Positions 21,164 through 31,112 of a stretch of DNA of 35,871 nt are shown here, piece after piece. Every line of letters begins with the position of its first letter. Position 1 is the first letter of the stretch. Source of the stretch: Acidimicrobiaceae bacterium (lineage in GTDB: Bacteria; Actinomycetota; Acidimicrobiia; Acidimicrobiales; RAAP-2); the NCBI GenBank assembly GCA_003141815.1, contig PLNQ01000112.1, positions 1 through 35,871 of the forward strand, in the 5' to 3' direction. The translations under genes were made by a program, and so were the position numbers. Below the pieces are notes generated by a model. It had not been told where the DNA came from. It worked only from the letters and a program-made list of their open reading frames with translations, and ran no database searches.

Positions 21164-21442
21164 GTGAGCCAGGTCCCGACAACAGAAGTCATCGAGGTCG
21201 TTGACCCGGTGGGTCACGTCCAAGTCATCTACCTCGGACCGGTGGCCCCGCACTGGGAGTGCCGGATGGTCTTCGGCGACGAGGAGCAGATCCAGGCCTT
21301 CGTTGACCGCGTGGACGCGCGACTTCGTTTTCTTCCTCCCCACGACCCGCAGTTTCGCCGCAACCGCGAACGCGTGAACCGTGACGCGGAACGAGAGAAC
21401 CTACTCGTCGAGTGGAACCTCGGCTACGACGAAGAGTCCTAG
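21164..21442 (+). CDS. Hypothetical protein (92 aa)
   Basis: GTG start with AAGGAG upstream; full-length open frame ending at a convergent gene; no recognised family. Confidence 0.65.
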   Translation: MSQVPTTEVIEVVDPVGHVQVIYLGPVAPHWECRMVFGDEEQIQAFVDRVDARLRFLPPHDPQFRRNRERVNRDAERENLLVEWNLGYDEES

Positions 21443-22569
21443 GCCAGCGGCGAGTTCGTCACTCGCTCGTACCATGCGTCAGGGTTGTTGAGTTCGCCCG
21501 CGCTCGGCAGTCCGTCCACGCGCAGTAACGCACCAAAGACGCTGAGTGAGTGCTTCTCCACGAGCGCCGACACGAAGGCCGTTGCCGCGTCGTGATGCGG
21601 TCCTTGAGTCGAGATGCCAAAGAGTGCGGCAGCCGCGTCCTCACCACGCGCGTCGCTACGTCGGTGTCTGGTGTAGGCCTCGGCCAGGGCGGGGCGTGGT
21701 CCGAGCAGCTTCTCAGTGATGTCCTGCGCCGCGGCGCAGAAGAAGGCGAGCAACACGCTCGCAGCCGCATTGATGGCGCGCGTGGCGTCGCTTTCTTCGG
21801 GCACCTCGATACCGTCGAGCAGTGATTCGGGATTGTTCATCATGTCGTTGATGTCGCCCGACTCCATCATTCCCTGCAGGCGTCCCATGAGATCGCCCTG
21901 GATGGCGTTGGCCTCGTTGACCGTGTCGATGAGCAGGGCTCGCAAGGCGTCACCGGTGCCCGGCTGAGAGAGGACCAGCGACGCCACGAACTCTTGGGCG
22001 AGCGCGAAGACGTAGACCTCGTCATGCTCCAATGACCACTCACTGGCGAAGTTGGCCAAGTTATTGACGACGAGCAGGTGCTGGTCATTCAGACGCGGCA
22101 GGGGCAACACGGCGAGCGACCACGCCCTCGCCGAGAAGTGGCCCGCGACCGATCCCATCTGAAAGCCCGCGAAGAGTGGTCCGATGGTCGAAGAGATCCG
22201 CGCCATGAGTTGATTGTTCGCATCCGCGTCGTCGAGCTCTTCGCTCGTCGTCGGCGGTGTGCTCGTGGCCATCGGATTCATCAAGGGACGCCATTGCTCG
22301 AGAGCGGCGAGCGTGAGGGCCGAACGATTCACCGCCACCACCGTTGGTTCACTCGAAACGCCAAAGAGGGCGTCGACGTGTCGTCCCACGAGCGGTGCCA
22401 ACTCTTCGAGTCGTTGGCGTTCGATGGGCAGGGGATTGGGGTCACCGTCGTCACCCCGGGCGATGTTGAGGGCGAGCTGGGTGGCCGTCGTGTACCAAGC
22501 GTCGGGACCCTGTTGACTCAACATCGAAAAGATGTCGCCGAACATGTCGCCGAAGGGGTTGGTCGTCAC
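21439..22569 (-). CDS. DUF2342 / zinc-metalloprotease-like family protein lacking HExxH
   Basis: MTTNPFGDMFGDIFSMLSQQGPDAWYTTATQLALNIA and GELNNPDAWYERV match family layout; the expected HEVAH site reads ALAQEFVAS. Confidence 0.65.
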   Translation of the reverse strand: MTTNPFGDMFGDIFSMLSQQGPDAWYTTATQLALNIARGDDGDPNPLPIERQRLEELAPLVGRHVDALFGVSSEPTVVAVNRSALTLAALEQWRPLMNPMATSTPPTTSEELDDADANNQLMARISSTIGPLFAGFQMGSVAGHFSARAWSLAVLPLPRLNDQHLLVVNNLANFASEWSLEHDEVYVFALAQEFVASLVLSQPGTGDALRALLIDTVNEANAIQGDLMGRLQGMMESGDINDMMNNPESLLDGIEVPEESDATRAINAAASVLLAFFCAAAQDITEKLLGPRPALAEAYTRHRRSDARGEDAAAALFGISTQGPHHDAATAFVSALVEKHSLSVFGALLRVDGLPSAGELNNPDAWYERVTNSPLA

Positions 22570-23660
22570 GGCACCAACTTAGAGGGACAGCCGAGCGTCA
22601 CGTTCACGTGGTGCACCGTGGACTTGTGGACGAAGCTGAGCTTCGCCGAGGTGTACGCGGGGGTCAGGTAGAGCGTCGACACCAACTGGTTCCAATTGTC
22701 GATTTCCTTGCCGTTCCAAGTGGTGAGGACGTCGCCCACGGCGACGTTGGCGTGCGCGGCGGCGCTGTAGCGCACGACGCTCTTCACGAGGACGCCCCCA
22801 CCTTGTTCGTCCTTGCCCACGACGCCGAGCTGCGCGTGACAGCCGTGGCCCGTGGCGACGACGACGGCGACCTCGGCCACGAACTGCGCGGCGTACCAGA
22901 AGTGCCGTGACGACAACACGGCCACGACGTGACCGCTCGCGTCGACGGCGATGGCGTCGACGTAACTACTGAGACTCGTGTCGGACTTCGTCGCCAAATA
23001 GCGCACGACGCCCTGGGCGTTGATGAGGGGGTCGCCGAGTGTTGTCATGGACCAGTCGTACTCGGGTGTCTTCGTCGAGCCACGAACGATCGGCGCCACG
23101 GCGACGACCGACGTGCTCGCGGGCATCGGATCAAGTTTCAACGCCGCGATCGGAACGCTCAAGTGCACGATGGAAAAGCCCATCACGCTGTCTCGGCCCT
23201 TCAGGGTCACGGGGAAGTTCACCTTCGTGGCGGTGGAGCCGGTGATCAGCGCGTTGACGGGAATCGCGACTGTCGTCACCGCGAGGTCGTGGGACAGCAC
23301 CAGTGCAGAGACGTGTACGACGTGGCCGGGCGTCGTGATCGTGAGGTCGACCGTACCCTTGGCTGCGGCGCGCGCCGACGCTGGGAGTGAACTGAGCGTC
23401 GTGGCCAAGTGCGCGGGGAGATTGCCGTTAGGGGTGCCAGCGCCCCGGTTGACCATGAGGACGATCCCGCCAACCACCAAGAGGATGGCCATGCCGCCCG
23501 CAATGGTCCGGGGGATGGTGGAGTGGGGCCGCACACTGGTCGTCGTCGCCAGTGTTTCAAAGCTCGGGAGCTCACTCGGGTGTACCCAGGGACGGCTTTC
23601 GGCCGACGGTCGCGCGCGACGGCTTCGGCGCCACCACCTCGATCTATCCCCATTAGCCAC
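22566..23660 (-). CDS. Membrane-anchored PDZ protein, degenerate HtrA/trypsin-like
   Basis: N-terminal TM GGMAILLVVGGIVLMV; C-terminal PDZ GGVLVKSVVRYSAAAHANVAVGDVLTTWNGKEIDNWNQL; 4-nt overlap with the DUF2342-like gene. Confidence 0.7.
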   Translation of the reverse strand: MANGDRSRWWRRSRRARPSAESRPWVHPSELPSFETLATTTSVRPHSTIPRTIAGGMAILLVVGGIVLMVNRGAGTPNGNLPAHLATTLSSLPASARAAAKGTVDLTITTPGHVVHVSALVLSHDLAVTTVAIPVNALITGSTATKVNFPVTLKGRDSVMGFSIVHLSVPIAALKLDPMPASTSVVAVAPIVRGSTKTPEYDWSMTTLGDPLINAQGVVRYLATKSDTSLSSYVDAIAVDASGHVVAVLSSRHFWYAAQFVAEVAVVVATGHGCHAQLGVVGKDEQGGGVLVKSVVRYSAAAHANVAVGDVLTTWNGKEIDNWNQLVSTLYLTPAYTSAKLSFVHKSTVHHVNVTLGCPSKLVP

Positions 23661-23717
23661 CTAGTGCAGGCTAGTTACGAAAGGACTCTTGTTGGCATCG
23701 CCCTAACATCGTTACTC

Positions 23718-24722
23718 ATGGCTTTAGACGTCGCGCTTGACATTGGCACCTCGAACACGCGCCTGGCGACCAGTCAGCGCGGCGTCTTATTCGACGAACC
23801 TACGATGGTCGCCATCGACACGAACTCCGGTGTCGTCGTCGAAGTCGGCCACGGCGCACTCGAACTCGTCGGTCGCACGTCACGTCACGTCGTCGTGTTT
23901 CGACCCTTCAATCAAGGCGCCACCGTCGACTTCGACGTCACGGCGCGACTCATCGAGGCACTCTTCGATCGTGCTGGCGTCTCCAAGTTGAGCCGCGCGC
24001 GCGTCGTCATGAGCGTCCCTTCTTTAGCGACGGCCATTGAACGACGCGCACTTCGCCAGGCCGCCATTCAAGCTGGTGCGCGCGAGGTGTCGTTAGTGGA
24101 AGCGCCCCTCGCCGCCGCGATTGGCCTCGGACTACCGGTCCAAGATCCCATCGGATCGGCCGTGACCCTCATGGGCGCGGGCGCGTCCGAGGCGGCGGTC
24201 ATCTCGCTTGGGGGCATCGTCACCGGTGGAGCGCGTCGAATCGGTGGCAACGACGTGGACGCGGCCATCGCGACGTCGCTACGACTCAACGTGGGCGTCG
24301 TCGTGGCCCCCTCCGTCGTCGAGATGCTCAAATGCACACTCGCTTCCGCACTCGGACGAACGACGGGACTCGTCGAAGTCGTACTCGCGCGCAGCGTGGA
24401 CCGAGGTGATCCCGTCGAAGTCGAAGTGAGCGCGGATTTGGTGAACGCGGCGGTGCACGACGTACTCAACTCGACGATTCGCATGATCGAAGAGTGCCTC
24501 AGTGACACGCCGCCCGACCTCTCTCAGGACGTCAGCGCGCGAGGCATGACCCTGGTCGGCGGACACGCCAACTTGAGCGACGTCGCCGAACTCGTCGCCA
24601 CGGCAACGGGGGTAGAGGTCAGCGTGGCTCCGCAGGCCGACCTCGTCGTCATCCAGGGACTGCAGGCCTGTCTCGAGGAGATGGCCTCACTGCACGCGTT
24701 GTTCCGTAGCGCCGACCGTTAG
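23718..24722 (+). CDS. MreB-like actin-fold protein (divergent)
   Basis: VALDIGTSNTRLATSQRGVLFDEPTMVAI...FRPFNQGATVDFDVTARLIEALF...RARVVMSVPSLATAIERRALRQAAIQAGAREVSLVEAPLAAAIGLGLPVQDPIGS...EAAVISLGGIV. Internal ATG 23718. Confidence 0.85.
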   Translation: MALDVALDIGTSNTRLATSQRGVLFDEPTMVAIDTNSGVVVEVGHGALELVGRTSRHVVVFRPFNQGATVDFDVTARLIEALFDRAGVSKLSRARVVMSVPSLATAIERRALRQAAIQAGAREVSLVEAPLAAAIGLGLPVQDPIGSAVTLMGAGASEAAVISLGGIVTGGARRIGGNDVDAAIATSLRLNVGVVVAPSVVEMLKCTLASALGRTTGLVEVVLARSVDRGDPVEVEVSADLVNAAVHDVLNSTIRMIEECLSDTPPDLSQDVSARGMTLVGGHANLSDVAELVATATGVEVSVAPQADLVVIQGLQACLEEMASLHALFRSADR

Positions 24723-25387: not shown

Positions 25388-26488
25388 TTGAGCAAGTTTT
25401 ACGTAATCGTTCCAATCGTCGTCGGGCTCTTGATCGTGCTCGGAACCAGGAACACCAACGACTACCTGATCTCGCCGGGCAACGCGACGCCGGTCGCGCC
25501 ACTCGTGAAGATCCACGGTGTTGCGACGAACCCCACGCACGACGAGATCATGCTCGCCGACGTGTATGAGCAGCAGTTGAACTATTTTGGTTGGATCAAG
25601 GCGCACTTTCAGTCCCATGTGCAGATCATCACGGCCAGCCAACTCGTGGAACCGGGCATTCCACTCGACGAACTCCTCTCGCAAGGTTTTCTTCAGATGA
25701 GTGATGCCAAACAGGCCGCCGAAACGGCCGCCTTCCGCGCGGTTGGTTGGTCGGTCCCGGCGACAAGAACGGGCACGGTGGTGACGGCCGTCGTCGCGCC
25801 ATCACCGGCGAGGTCGGCCGGCGTGCATGTTGGCGACGAGATCGTTGGCGTCAACAACACGACGATTCGTTCGGGTTGTCAACTCATCGCTTCCGTGCAC
25901 TCGCTCGCGCCCGGCACGGCGTTGACATTGCACGTGCACGCCGTGAAGATCTCGAACTCCGGCGTGTTGACGTACGGGGCGTCGATTATCGTGAAAGTCG
26001 CCACGGCGAAAGCACCCGCGAACGTCGCAAGTTCCGGGTGCCCCGGGGTGACGGGGGTCGACCGCTCGTACCTCGGCGTCGCCGTCGAGGATGGCTTCAG
26101 TTACAAATTGCCCGCGACCGTCTCGATCAACACCGCAAGTATTGGCGGCCCCTCGGCCGGACTCGCGATGACGTTGACGCTCATTAACGAACTGACGCGC
26201 GGCTCTTTGACCGGCCACCACGTCATCGCCGTCACCGGTACCATCGACGCTCAAGGCAACGTCGGACCAGTCGGCGGCGTCGAGCAAAAGGCCGTAGCGG
26301 TGGCTCGCGCGGGGGCGTCGTACTTCTTCGTACCCGATAGTGGTGGCGACGTCGCGGCTGCGCGCGACGCGCGCCAAACGGGCCTCAAAATAATTCCTGT
26401 CACGACGCTTCAGCAGGTCCTGAGCGAACTGCGCTCACTCGGGGGCGCCAAACCCCAGCCCGTTACTAAGCCGTCCTCAGCGTTGTAA
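25388..26488 (+). CDS. YlbL-type membrane PDZ-Lon (S16) protease
   Basis: N-terminal TM, PDZ region (TGTVVTAVVAPSPARSAGVHVGDEIVGVNNTTI), S16 catalytic GGPSAGLAMTL (Ser) and GPVGGVEQKAVAVARAGA (Lys). Confidence 0.9.
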   Translation: MSKFYVIVPIVVGLLIVLGTRNTNDYLISPGNATPVAPLVKIHGVATNPTHDEIMLADVYEQQLNYFGWIKAHFQSHVQIITASQLVEPGIPLDELLSQGFLQMSDAKQAAETAAFRAVGWSVPATRTGTVVTAVVAPSPARSAGVHVGDEIVGVNNTTIRSGCQLIASVHSLAPGTALTLHVHAVKISNSGVLTYGASIIVKVATAKAPANVASSGCPGVTGVDRSYLGVAVEDGFSYKLPATVSINTASIGGPSAGLAMTLTLINELTRGSLTGHHVIAVTGTIDAQGNVGPVGGVEQKAVAVARAGASYFFVPDSGGDVAAARDARQTGLKIIPVTTLQQVLSELRSLGGAKPQPVTKPSSAL

Positions 26489-26526: not shown

Positions 26527-28194
26527 ATGGACGACCGTCGAATAACCTCTACGACGCGCCCGTCGTCGTCCGATATCGTTCGGATGAACTTCACGACGGT
26601 GCGAAAAGGCGGGCTGGACCCGAACGAAGTCCGCTTGCACCTCGAGGCCGCGGCGCGCGAGATGGGTCACCTCGAGAACCGAGTTCGCGAACTCCAAGAG
26701 CAGGTCAACGAGGCCCAGCGCAAAGCCGCGAATCCTACCTTTGATGAGGCGACACTCACGGCCGCCCTCGGCGCGCAGAGTGCCGCGATCCTTCGCTCCT
26801 CGCACGAAGAAGCCGGGCGCGTCACCGCCGAGGCCCAAGAGCGCAGCGCCCAGGTCTTCACCGAGACCCAACAGCGCAGCGCCAGTCACCTCATCGAAGC
26901 GCAAGAGCGCGCGACGGCGTTGATTACTGAAGCCGAGAACACCGGGGCCACAATCGATCACGACGCTCGTTTGGCGGCCGAGCGACTCATCGACTCTGCC
27001 AAGGTCAACGGCGAGGCACTCGTCGATCGCGCGAGGGAGCAGGGCCGCGCGATTGTCGAACAGTCGAATGAGGCGCGCCGCAACGTACTCAACGACCTCG
27101 CGATTAAGCGAAAAGCGCTGCATCTTCAGATCGAACAGCTGCGCGCGGCGCGTGACACGTTAGGCTCTTTCATAGCAACAGTGCGTCTTCAGGTTGATGA
27201 CGTGTTGTCTGGAATAAACGGTTCCGACGAGGTCGCCCGCGGCGCCGCACTCGAGGCGCTGCGAATGCAGCCCGCGGCGCCGGAACCTACCGAAGAGGAG
27301 CTGCTGGCTGGCACGCCTCTACGTGAAGTGCCCGACGCTGCGCTTGAGACAGGAGAAGACGCCACGGTGACGAAGTCCCGATCACGCAAGCCGCCCAAGA
27401 GCGCCGCGCCCGTCGAAGAGTCACTGTTAGAGGACGACCCGTCCGGTACGGACGTCGTGAACGAGATCTTCGCTCGACTTCGTAAGGCCACTCTCGAAGA
27501 GCGGGGTGTCACGATACCGCCGCCCAAAAAGGCGGCCGCGCACAAACCCGAAACGCCCGTTGGCGTGCTCTTTCGCCGTCGCGACGCGGCGCTCGAAGAG
27601 TCGCTCGCGGTCCTGACGCGTCGAGTCAAGCGCGCGCTCCAAGACGACCAGAACATCATGCTCGAACGTCTGCGCGGTGTAAAGGCGATGATCACCACCG
27701 AACTCGAGGACGAGCACGACCAGCGCTCTCGTTACGCCGAGGCCGCCTTTGAGGCTCTCGAACATGCCGCCCAAGCAGGCGTGCAGTTCGCACGCGAAGA
27801 GGGCGGGGCTGCGGGTGCGAACGTCGAGAAGCAGTCGTTAGAAGATTGTGCTGCGGATCTCGCGGTCACCATCGTGTTAGCGCTGCGCAAGCGTATCCTC
27901 TCCGATAGCAGTGGTGACGGGCCCGAGCGCGTGAACGCGGCGTACCGCGAGTGGCGTGGTGCGCGCGTCGAACGACTCTGCACCGATGCGGCGCGACGAG
28001 CCTTCCACCTCGGTGTCGTGACGGCGTCCGTGGGACGATCGATTCGATTCTTTGCCGCGCCGAACGACGCGCCGTGCGACTTGTGTTCGCACGACTCTGA
28101 GACCGGTGAACGCATCGCGGGAGAGAAGTTTCCCAGTGGTTCTCCGTACCCACCGTTGCACGCGGGCTGCGCCTGCACTGTCGTACCCGTATAA
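26527..28194 (+). CDS. DivIVA-like coiled-coil protein with C-terminal MuF/SPP1-gp7-like domain
   Basis: N-terminal FTTVRKGGLDPNEVRLHLEAAAREMGHLENRVRELQEQV (DivIVA-like); C-terminal RAFHLGVVTASVGRSIRFFAAPNDAPCDLCSHDSETGERIAGEKFPSGSPYPPLHAGCACTVVPV resembles phage minor-capsid MuF C-terminus. Confidence 0.75.
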   Translation: MDDRRITSTTRPSSSDIVRMNFTTVRKGGLDPNEVRLHLEAAAREMGHLENRVRELQEQVNEAQRKAANPTFDEATLTAALGAQSAAILRSSHEEAGRVTAEAQERSAQVFTETQQRSASHLIEAQERATALITEAENTGATIDHDARLAAERLIDSAKVNGEALVDRAREQGRAIVEQSNEARRNVLNDLAIKRKALHLQIEQLRAARDTLGSFIATVRLQVDDVLSGINGSDEVARGAALEALRMQPAAPEPTEEELLAGTPLREVPDAALETGEDATVTKSRSRKPPKSAAPVEESLLEDDPSGTDVVNEIFARLRKATLEERGVTIPPPKKAAAHKPETPVGVLFRRRDAALEESLAVLTRRVKRALQDDQNIMLERLRGVKAMITTELEDEHDQRSRYAEAAFEALEHAAQAGVQFAREEGGAAGANVEKQSLEDCAADLAVTIVLALRKRILSDSSGDGPERVNAAYREWRGARVERLCTDAARRAFHLGVVTASVGRSIRFFAAPNDAPCDLCSHDSETGERIAGEKFPSGSPYPPLHAGCACTVVPV

Positions 28195-28214: not shown

Positions 28215-31112
28215 GTGCGCAGTCCCACCGACGTCCCTCAACGACCGCGTCGCCTCGGACGATTGTCACGGCGGTTCTGGATTGGGCTGATTGTCGTGGT
28301 CTTGCTGGTGGGTTTTCTCTCGCTGCGCAATCTGGCGGTCCTTTGGACTGATCAGATGTGGTTCTCGTCGGTCGGGTTCTCGAGCGTCTTTTCGACGCTG
28401 TTCTTCGTCAAGGTCGGACTCGGCTTCACCTTCGGCGCGATCTTTTTCTTCATCATGTGGGGCAATCTGTTGCTCACCGACCGATTCGGCGCGCGGGACC
28501 TCTCCTTCGAGCCCGAGGACGAGGTCGTGCGACGCTTCCAGAACGTCGTACGCCCCTACGCCAAGCGCGTCTACGCCGCAATCGCGCTGATCATGGGCCT
28601 CGTCGCGGGGTTGAACGCCACGGGTCAGTGGCAGAAGTACCTGCTCTTCTCGCACGCTCAGTCGTTTCACCAGGTAGATCCGGTCTTTCACAAAGACCTC
28701 GGGTTCTACATCTTCACTCTTCCTTTCGTGTCCTACGTCGTCACGTGGTTCCTCGTCGTCTTGATATTCGCCTTGCTGGTCACGACGGGCTTTCACTTCT
28801 TGAACGGTGGCATCCGCACCACGCGCGTGACGCCGCGCGTCGCGCCTCGGGTGAAGGCCCACCTCTCGGTGATCGGCGCCGCTATCGCGCTCATGAAGGC
28901 GGCCGGTTACCTCATCGCCAAGTGGGAGCTCGTCAACTCCAGCAACGGCTACGTCCAGGGCGCGACGTACACGGACATCCACGCGCGCATGCCGGCGCTG
29001 ACCATCCTCTTCTATCTGTCACTGGCCGCGACCGTGATCCTTCTCTACAACGTGCGCTCGAGGGGATGGTCTCTGCCGGTCGTCGCCGTGGGCCTGTGGG
29101 CCTTCGTGGCGCTCGTCATCGGCGTGCTCTATCCGACGTTCCTCCAAGCCTTGAAGGTGAGCCCCAACCAGCAGTCGCTCGAGTCGCCGTACATCCAGAG
29201 AAACATCACCGCGACGCGCGCGGCCTTCGGTCTCGACAAGGTGCAGGATCATACCTTCGCCGGTTCGACGTCGATTACCCAATCCCAGATCAAGGGCAAC
29301 ATGTTGACGTTGAACAACATTCGCCTATGGGACCCGTCGAGCAAAATCTCCCTCGAGACGGTGACGCGGCGTCAGTCGATTCGTTCGTACTACAACTTCA
29401 CGACGTTGTCCGTGGATCGTTACTTCGTCAACGGCAAGTTGACGCCGGTTCTCATCGGCGCTCGCCAACTCAACTCCAACAACCTGCCCTCGCAGAGTTG
29501 GGTGAACCAGCACCTGCAGTACACCCACGGCATCGGTGCCGCGGTGGTGGCGGCCAACCAGGTCGACCCGTCGACGGGCAATCCGATCTTCGACATCTCG
29601 AACGTGCCGCCTCTCTCTACAAACGGTCTGCCGCTCTTGACCCAGCCCGATATCTACTTCGGCATTGGCTACAACGGCTGGGTCGTCGCGAACTCGAAAC
29701 AGCCCGAACTTGACTACCAGGTGAATACGGGCAAGAACGCCGGCACCCCCGTCGAGACGCACTACACGAGCACCGGCGGTGTTCCGGTCGGCACCATCTT
29801 CTCGCGACTCGCGCTCGCGCTACGCCTCGGTGACTTCAACTTCCTGATCTCGAATCAGATCGACGCGAAGAGTCGCGTGCTCTTCGTGCGTGACGTAAAG
29901 CAGATGGCCCAAAAGGCCGCGCCCTTCCTCACGTTCGACTCCCAGCCCTACGCCGTCGTCGCCAACGGTGAATTGCAGTACGTCCTCGACGGCTACACGA
30001 CGACGTCCCAATACCCCTACAGCGAAGACGCCAATCAGCTCGGCATCAGCACCGGGGGACTGCCCGGAAGCTTCAACTACGCGCGCAACTCCGTGAAGGT
30101 CGTCGTCAACGCCTACACCGGCGCAATGACGTTCTACGCGAACGACCCCAACGACCCGATCCTGAAGGCCTACCGTTCGGCCTTCCCGACGCTGTTCCAA
30201 CCCCTGAGTGCCATGCCTTCGACCATTCGCACGCACCTGCGCTACCCAGGTGACCTCTTCTCGGTTCAGGCCGCGACGTTCGGGCGTTACCACATCACCT
30301 CCGCGACGGCCTTCTACTCCGCGTCGGACCGCTGGCAGATCTCGCCCACGACGGGGGCTGGTTCTCCCTCACAAGCGCTCGCGCGCACCTCGACGCTCAA
30401 CAAAGCTGGCGACGTTATCTCCACGTCGTTTTCCGCGATGAGCCCTGTCTTTCAGGTTGGTTCGCTACCGAACCAGAACAAACAACAGTTGCTCGAGTCG
30501 GTCGACTACGTGCCAGCAGGTAACTCCTCGACGGTGCAGAGTCTGACGGGCTTCATGATCGCCACGAGTGACCCCAACAACTACGGGCAGCTCAGTGTCT
30601 ACGAGACCCCTCGCGGGACGACGGTGACCGGGCCGTTGCAAGCCGACTCGGAGATTCAACAGACCTCCAAGGTCAGTTCGATCATCACGCCCCTCGACCA
30701 ACACGGCTCCAGCGTCATCCTGGGTAACAACCTCACGGTGCCCCTCGACTCGAGCGTGCTTTACATTCGCCCGCTCTACGTCACGAGTACGGCGAACCCG
30801 ATGCCGCAGTTGCGCTACGTCATCGCGGTCTTCAACCAAGACGTCGGAATCGAGCCGACGTTGGCAGGTGCACTGTCCGACGTGTTCGGGGCCAACGTCA
30901 CGGGCATCGCCAACTCGAACCCGGGCAACGGAGGCGGATCGGGCACTACGAACAAGGGCGCGATCGTCGCTTCGTATTTACAGCGGGCCTCGGTGGACTA
31001 CACAAACGCGCAGACCGCGTTGGCTAGCGGAGACCTCGGGCTCTACCAAAAAGACGTCAACGCCATGAATCAGCAGTTGAAGCTGGCCCAGAACGCGCTC
31101 AACAAGGGCTAA
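28215..31112 (+). CDS. UPF0182 family large membrane protein
   Basis: FWIGLIVVVLLVGFLSLRNLAVLWTDQMWFSSVGFSSVFSTLFFVKVGL; YPTFLQALKVSPNQQSLESPYIQRNITATRAAFGLDKV; LRYPGDLFSVQAATFGRYHIT are family hallmarks. Confidence 0.95.
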   Translation: MRSPTDVPQRPRRLGRLSRRFWIGLIVVVLLVGFLSLRNLAVLWTDQMWFSSVGFSSVFSTLFFVKVGLGFTFGAIFFFIMWGNLLLTDRFGARDLSFEPEDEVVRRFQNVVRPYAKRVYAAIALIMGLVAGLNATGQWQKYLLFSHAQSFHQVDPVFHKDLGFYIFTLPFVSYVVTWFLVVLIFALLVTTGFHFLNGGIRTTRVTPRVAPRVKAHLSVIGAAIALMKAAGYLIAKWELVNSSNGYVQGATYTDIHARMPALTILFYLSLAATVILLYNVRSRGWSLPVVAVGLWAFVALVIGVLYPTFLQALKVSPNQQSLESPYIQRNITATRAAFGLDKVQDHTFAGSTSITQSQIKGNMLTLNNIRLWDPSSKISLETVTRRQSIRSYYNFTTLSVDRYFVNGKLTPVLIGARQLNSNNLPSQSWVNQHLQYTHGIGAAVVAANQVDPSTGNPIFDISNVPPLSTNGLPLLTQPDIYFGIGYNGWVVANSKQPELDYQVNTGKNAGTPVETHYTSTGGVPVGTIFSRLALALRLGDFNFLISNQIDAKSRVLFVRDVKQMAQKAAPFLTFDSQPYAVVANGELQYVLDGYTTTSQYPYSEDANQLGISTGGLPGSFNYARNSVKVVVNAYTGAMTFYANDPNDPILKAYRSAFPTLFQPLSAMPSTIRTHLRYPGDLFSVQAATFGRYHITSATAFYSASDRWQISPTTGAGSPSQALARTSTLNKAGDVISTSFSAMSPVFQVGSLPNQNKQQLLESVDYVPAGNSSTVQSLTGFMIATSDPNNYGQLSVYETPRGTTVTGPLQADSEIQQTSKVSSIITPLDQHGSSVILGNNLTVPLDSSVLYIRPLYVTSTANPMPQLRYVIAVFNQDVGIEPTLAGALSDVFGANVTGIANSNPGNGGGSGTTNKGAIVASYLQRASVDYTNAQTALASGDLGLYQKDVNAMNQQLKLAQNALNKG

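Follow-up and report, generated by a model that had tools for sequence, protein, structure and literature searches.

The 35,871-nucleotide stretch of DNA analyzed here (the window) encodes a 555-amino-acid protein in which a DivIVA domain is joined to a C-terminal domain homologous to the MuF proteins of phage heads. The fusion is real and undescribed in the literature that was searched; this literature was open-access only, no paper joining DivIVA with MuF was found in it, and such absence is not proof. The gene is chromosomal and has been inherited vertically across the class Acidimicrobiia. We consider it probable, if by no means settled, that the product of this chromosomal, vertically inherited gene is a DivIVA-family scaffold with an exapted phage MuF domain that is reused as a docking or oligomerization module at the growth or division zone.

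The first-pass annotation of this DNA had placed the open reading frame at positions 26527..28194, and both this location and the C-terminal letters that it reported were reproduced exactly on recheck (plus strand; M1 is invariant among 38 close orthologs). The DivIVA domain spans residues ~14-122 (26566..26892, plus strand) and includes F22 followed by RKGGLDPNEV, a variant of the DivIVA motif RGYDxxEVD, ahead of the coiled coil. The window protein exceeds the Pfam cut-off for the DivIVA family (PF05103; E = 1.7e-7, 31.7 bits against a cut-off of 28), and the same family is matched by the N-termini of all 66 diverse orthologs (best E-value 9.7e-20), among which F22, G29 and V35 are invariant; the DivIVA-like coiled-coil N-terminus described in the first-pass annotation is thus borne out. 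In the full-length AlphaFold2 model, residues 74-246 (26746..27264, plus strand) form a single long helix, predicted to be a coiled coil (pLDDT ~90 for most of its length), which is followed by a low-confidence linker (residues 247-343; 27265..27555, plus strand) containing a conserved helix (residues 309-325; about 27451-27501, plus strand) and then by the MuF domain (residues 345-555; 27559..28191, plus strand). The pTM of this model is 0.42, so that the placement of the domains relative to each other is unreliable. The linker helix carries the motif IFARLR that is present in 93 of the 139 members of the family compared to none of 1610 other ORFs. The canonical DivIVA of the source genome is a separate, 256-amino-acid protein encoded next to SepF and FtsZ (the identities of these two neighbors were read from the sequence, without a profile scan); therefore, the DivIVA-MuF protein is a second, dedicated member of the family.

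The C-terminal domain of ~212 residues is homologous to phage MuF and portal-MuF proteins over its whole length, a conclusion that rests on PHROG, Pfam, hhalign and a structure model. Residues 331-555 of the window protein (225 residues) match, with nearly full coverage, PHROG 2662, a family of portals with a MuF tail (E = 7.5e-7), the match falling on the C-terminal 220 of the 717 profile positions; a match to PHROG 2841, a minor head protein, was detected as well (1.6e-4). Among the orthologs, 59 of 72 match PHROG 2662 (best E-value 2.7e-13) and 23 of 72 match Phage_Mu_F (PF04233) in Pfam (best E-value 6e-6). When an alignment of 72 members reaching down to 25% identity was compared, using hhalign, with five portal-MuF tails taken from viral contigs and phage genomes, the two were aligned over 208 columns with a probability of 98.9% (E = 3.1e-17). 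Because this phage set is small and was gathered starting from one ortholog, the hhalign value is to be read beside the independent PHROG and Pfam results. A control profile of the DivIVA region had an hhalign probability of 0.1% against phage MuF, which rules out a coiled-coil artifact as the source of the similarity. Chance similarity is excluded too, because the profile of the 72-member alignment retrieves phage portal-MuF proteins in a reverse search (3.3e-16 for that of phage Strzyga), yet none of the 4405 other ORFs of the same loci. The first helix of the domain carries the motif RxxKRxLQDxQNxxLxxLR (residues 365-383). The profile searches, proposed in the first-pass annotation as a check and positive in PHROG for the window protein, in Pfam for orthologs and in hhalign, together with the fold search described below, uphold its assignment of the C-terminus to the MuF/gp7 proteins; the annotation had, however, confined the likeness to the last ~65 residues, whereas the homology extends over residues ~345-555.

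The window protein by itself is not matched by Phage_Mu_F in Pfam, a result that leaves some room for an unrelated zinc ribbon that would have converged on the CxxC...HxxCxC pattern; we give this possibility hardly any credence, and, as far as such computational comparisons can tell, it is rejected by homology that covers 208 profile columns, helices included, and by the predicted fold. The AlphaFold2 model of the C-terminal domain alone, obtained with 39 sequences (pLDDT 87.9, pTM 0.87), yielded full-length matches to MuF proteins: a Foldseek search of viral models produced 54 matches at E <= 0.001, with TM-scores by query of up to 0.68, and of the named proteins in the top 50, nearly all belong to the head-morphogenesis, minor-capsid or portal type, the outcome that the MuF/gp7 hypothesis had called for. 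The Foldseek search against the PDB produced nothing significant, neither a zinc ribbon nor another solved fold, and a PDB sequence search returned only helical look-alikes and ribosomal proteins. Residue conservation points to a probable metal-binding knuckle consisting of C517, C520, H545, C548 and C550 (28075..28176, plus strand). Among diverse members, C548 is present in 57 of 57 and C550 in 56 of 57; the full CCHCC set is found in 58 of the 72 aligned members, the ligands being incomplete in the other 14. Of the C..C plus CxC layout noted originally, the terminal CxC is nearly constant, but the C..C half varies, as it does among phage MuF proteins. One genome (G073) contains two YlbL/DivIVA-MuF/UPF0182 loci (L187, 5021-6724, plus strand, and L188, 6041-7669, minus strand), in both of which the protein is truncated before the knuckle.

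The fusion gene is tightly packed between two genes for membrane proteins, namely, a YlbL-like protease with PDZ and Lon_C domains located 38 nt upstream (25388..26488, plus strand; Pfam and synteny) and a UPF0182 protein located 20 nt downstream (28215..31112, plus strand; PF03699, E = 1.4e-243, and synteny). The neighborhood also includes genes for a HEAT protein and, a short way upstream, an MreB/Mbl paralog (23409..24722, plus strand; PF06723, E = 6.7e-77, residues 107-428). The true start of the latter is probably near 23718 because the GTG-started ORF has a non-homologous N-terminus of ~100 residues; many relatives have a homolog of this paralog, too. Two further genes of the window lie on the minus strand: one (21439-22569) encodes a Zincin_2 (PF10103) homolog in which no HExxH was seen and QEFVA stands where one might be expected, so that it may possibly be an inactive protease; the other (22566-23660) encodes a protein whose C-terminal PDZ domain resembles those of HtrA proteases and in which Pfam matched no protease domain.

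UPF0182 is encoded directly after the DivIVA-MuF gene in 120 of the 121 loci, the lone exception being a contig end, and YlbL precedes it in most of them, the remainder being contig ends or cases below the search threshold. The loci were picked by the DivIVA-MuF gene rather than by its neighbors, and therefore this synteny is an independent observation; the fusion keeps its place beside YlbL and UPF0182 at practically all of the loci inspected. Where members of the phylum lack DivIVA-MuF, the YlbL and UPF0182 genes either adjoin each other or have other genes between them, such as one for a histidine kinase and a FecR-like one (identities assigned by inspection of the sequence). Given that MuF is a phage head protein and that, in the survey of Jamet et al., 2017, 96% of the muf genes in bacterial genomes were located in prophages or their remnants (PMC5576092), the gene could be suspected to belong to a degraded prophage or a gene transfer agent. 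We regard this as extremely improbable and reject it on the grounds of neighbors and distribution: the vicinity of the DivIVA-MuF gene contains no portal, capsid or terminase gene, in accord with the flanks free of phage genes described initially; the same cellular neighbors recur across three classes; and the portal part of PHROG 2662 was matched in only 3 of 60 genomes of the class. Neither of the two outcomes that would have refuted the first-pass annotation, an unrelated zinc ribbon without a MuF/gp7 profile match and a prophage location, was seen.

The whole protein is matched in 58 of 61 genomes of the family, and the MuF profile in 248 of 297 genomes and 146 of 162 genera of Acidimicrobiia. 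Two other classes contain matches in 8 of 24 and 17 of 66 genomes, and, in a sample of the phylum, 56 of 398 genomes match, 38 of these 56 being within Acidimicrobiia. Almost everywhere, there is one copy per genome. Of 16 examined loci of the class at which MuF was not matched, YlbL immediately precedes UPF0182 at 11, a DivIVA-like protein with the motif FAR[LI]R and no MuF is encoded at 2, and 3 show neither arrangement. The two MuF-less DivIVA-like proteins (L227, 238-1404, plus strand; L230, 4086-5084, minus strand) are directly followed by UPF0182; in them the FAR[LI]R motif of the linker is thus kept without MuF. The existence of class loci without the gene, and of two lineages that keep the DivIVA-linker part alone, implies that MuF is not indispensable. 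The simplest reading is a single old fusion event at the YlbL-UPF0182 locus, after which either the whole gene or just the MuF part was lost in some lineages. The distances between MuF domains correlate moderately with those between UPF0182 proteins (Spearman coefficient 0.385; 0 of 500 permutations). The dN/dS ratios for the MuF part against six close relatives are in the range of 0.02 to 0.14, indicating that the domain is maintained by purifying selection; these values are rough due to synonymous saturation (synonymous differences at 42-59% of the sites). Two draft genomes (L088, 1617-3342; L089, 6885-8586) have an interrupted reading frame in the fusion gene, reflecting either sequencing error or pseudogenes.

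These patterns bear on the possibility that the protein is an anti-phage decoy, a membrane-tethered MuF that captures incoming portals or poisons procapsid assembly. The SPP1 gp7 protein binds the portal (PMC5576092), for which a host copy could compete; nevertheless, the antiquity of the gene, its single copy, its fixed locus and the strong purifying selection on it make such a role very unlikely. Moreover, unlike what would be expected of a decoy tracking current phages, a tblastn search of 50,697 phage records with the domain of the window protein and with a second ortholog gave no significant match. The second ortholog produced one sub-threshold phage match (E = 3), which is itself a portal protein, and had no match in plasmids.

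DivIVA proteins are cytoplasmic scaffolds of membrane curvature, and the docking site of MuF in phages is the portal ring. Under the scaffold hypothesis that we favor, in which inferred membrane binding, self-assembly, ligand display and docking are added to the demonstrated domain architecture, homology, fixed locus and purifying selection, the DivIVA head would self-assemble and attach to curved polar or septal membrane, whereas the long helix and the flexible linker would hold two ligands, the FARLR helix and the MuF domain, out in the cytoplasm. The MuF domain, probably stabilized by metal, would most likely serve as a protein-docking or oligomerization module recruiting a partner to the growth or division zone, and the scaffold as a whole may serve the YlbL-UPF0182 envelope operon together with the nearby MreB paralog. 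In Bacillus subtilis, YlbL clears a cell-division inhibitor (PMC6051672). A role in the cell envelope or division, as the first-pass annotation had suggested, is still only inferred, on the grounds of the DivIVA part, the operon and the neighboring MreB paralog, without localization, binding or knockout data.

Alternatively, the MuF domain could bind DNA, the protein anchoring the chromosome at the pole or septum. DivIVA proteins are known to tether chromosomes in some bacteria, and K/R residues are conserved in helix 1 of MuF. Furthermore, SPP1 gp7 is called a DNA-binding protein in Stiege 2003, a designation taken solely from the title of that paper as listed in PMC5576092. Nevertheless, the MuF domain is acidic, with a charge of -4 in the window protein and a family median of -6, which renders DNA tethering less likely, and the conserved positive residues are concentrated in helix 1; we accordingly view a chromosome tether as unlikely, albeit not negligible.

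That a vertically inherited gene joins DivIVA to a phage-head MuF domain suggests the recruitment of a viral part for everyday work on the cell envelope; the direction, from a phage donor to a cellular recipient, is assumed by parsimony and has not been shown. A more specific scenario, which we put forward only tentatively and without considering it the likelier outcome, is that a docking domain of the phage head vertex was built into the growth or division machinery at an early stage of one branch of Actinomycetota and continues to dock a cellular partner that replaces the portal. Chromosomal muf genes are otherwise almost always prophage-borne; here, MuF is attached to a cytoskeletal scaffold and has been passed down as part of the chromosome across a class. 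The fusion offers a way to study, outside the virion, the molecular function of MuF, said to be unknown even for phage Mu, and puts a testable role on the uncharacterized operon of UPF0182, a protein without known function.

Compared to the DivIVA/Wag31/GpsB family, the protein shares the N-terminal F...RG[YFL]DxxEV motif followed by a coiled coil and differs in the added MuF domain; in a survey of DivIVA-like proteins, the words phage and fusion are absent from the main text (PMC9858780). It is a homolog of the Phage_Mu_F/SPP1 gp7 family by Pfam, through its orthologs, and by fold search, but occurs outside phages, with no portal adjoining, and the window protein lies below Pfam detection. 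Head-morphogenesis proteins of virions are portal-linked or portal-fused within the head module, unlike DivIVA-MuF. MuF polymorphic toxins (PMC5576092) are also multidomain proteins built on MuF; however, in these proteins of temperate phages, MuF is N-terminal and a toxin forms the C-terminus, whereas DivIVA-MuF has its MuF domain at the C-terminus, and neither a toxin domain nor a prophage was detected. The phage portal-MuF proteins of PHROG 2662, such as those of Brevundimonas phage Strzyga, in which the tail reads CAVCAGNAGAGAIEVEEDFPSGHAAPSAHPECRC, and Streptomyces phage Chymera, have the same C-terminal domain over ~210 residues, including the helices, the W before the knuckle and the CxxC...P..H..CxC...P pattern; there is no linked head gene here, and the N-terminal partner, which is the portal in the phages, is DivIVA in the fusion described here.
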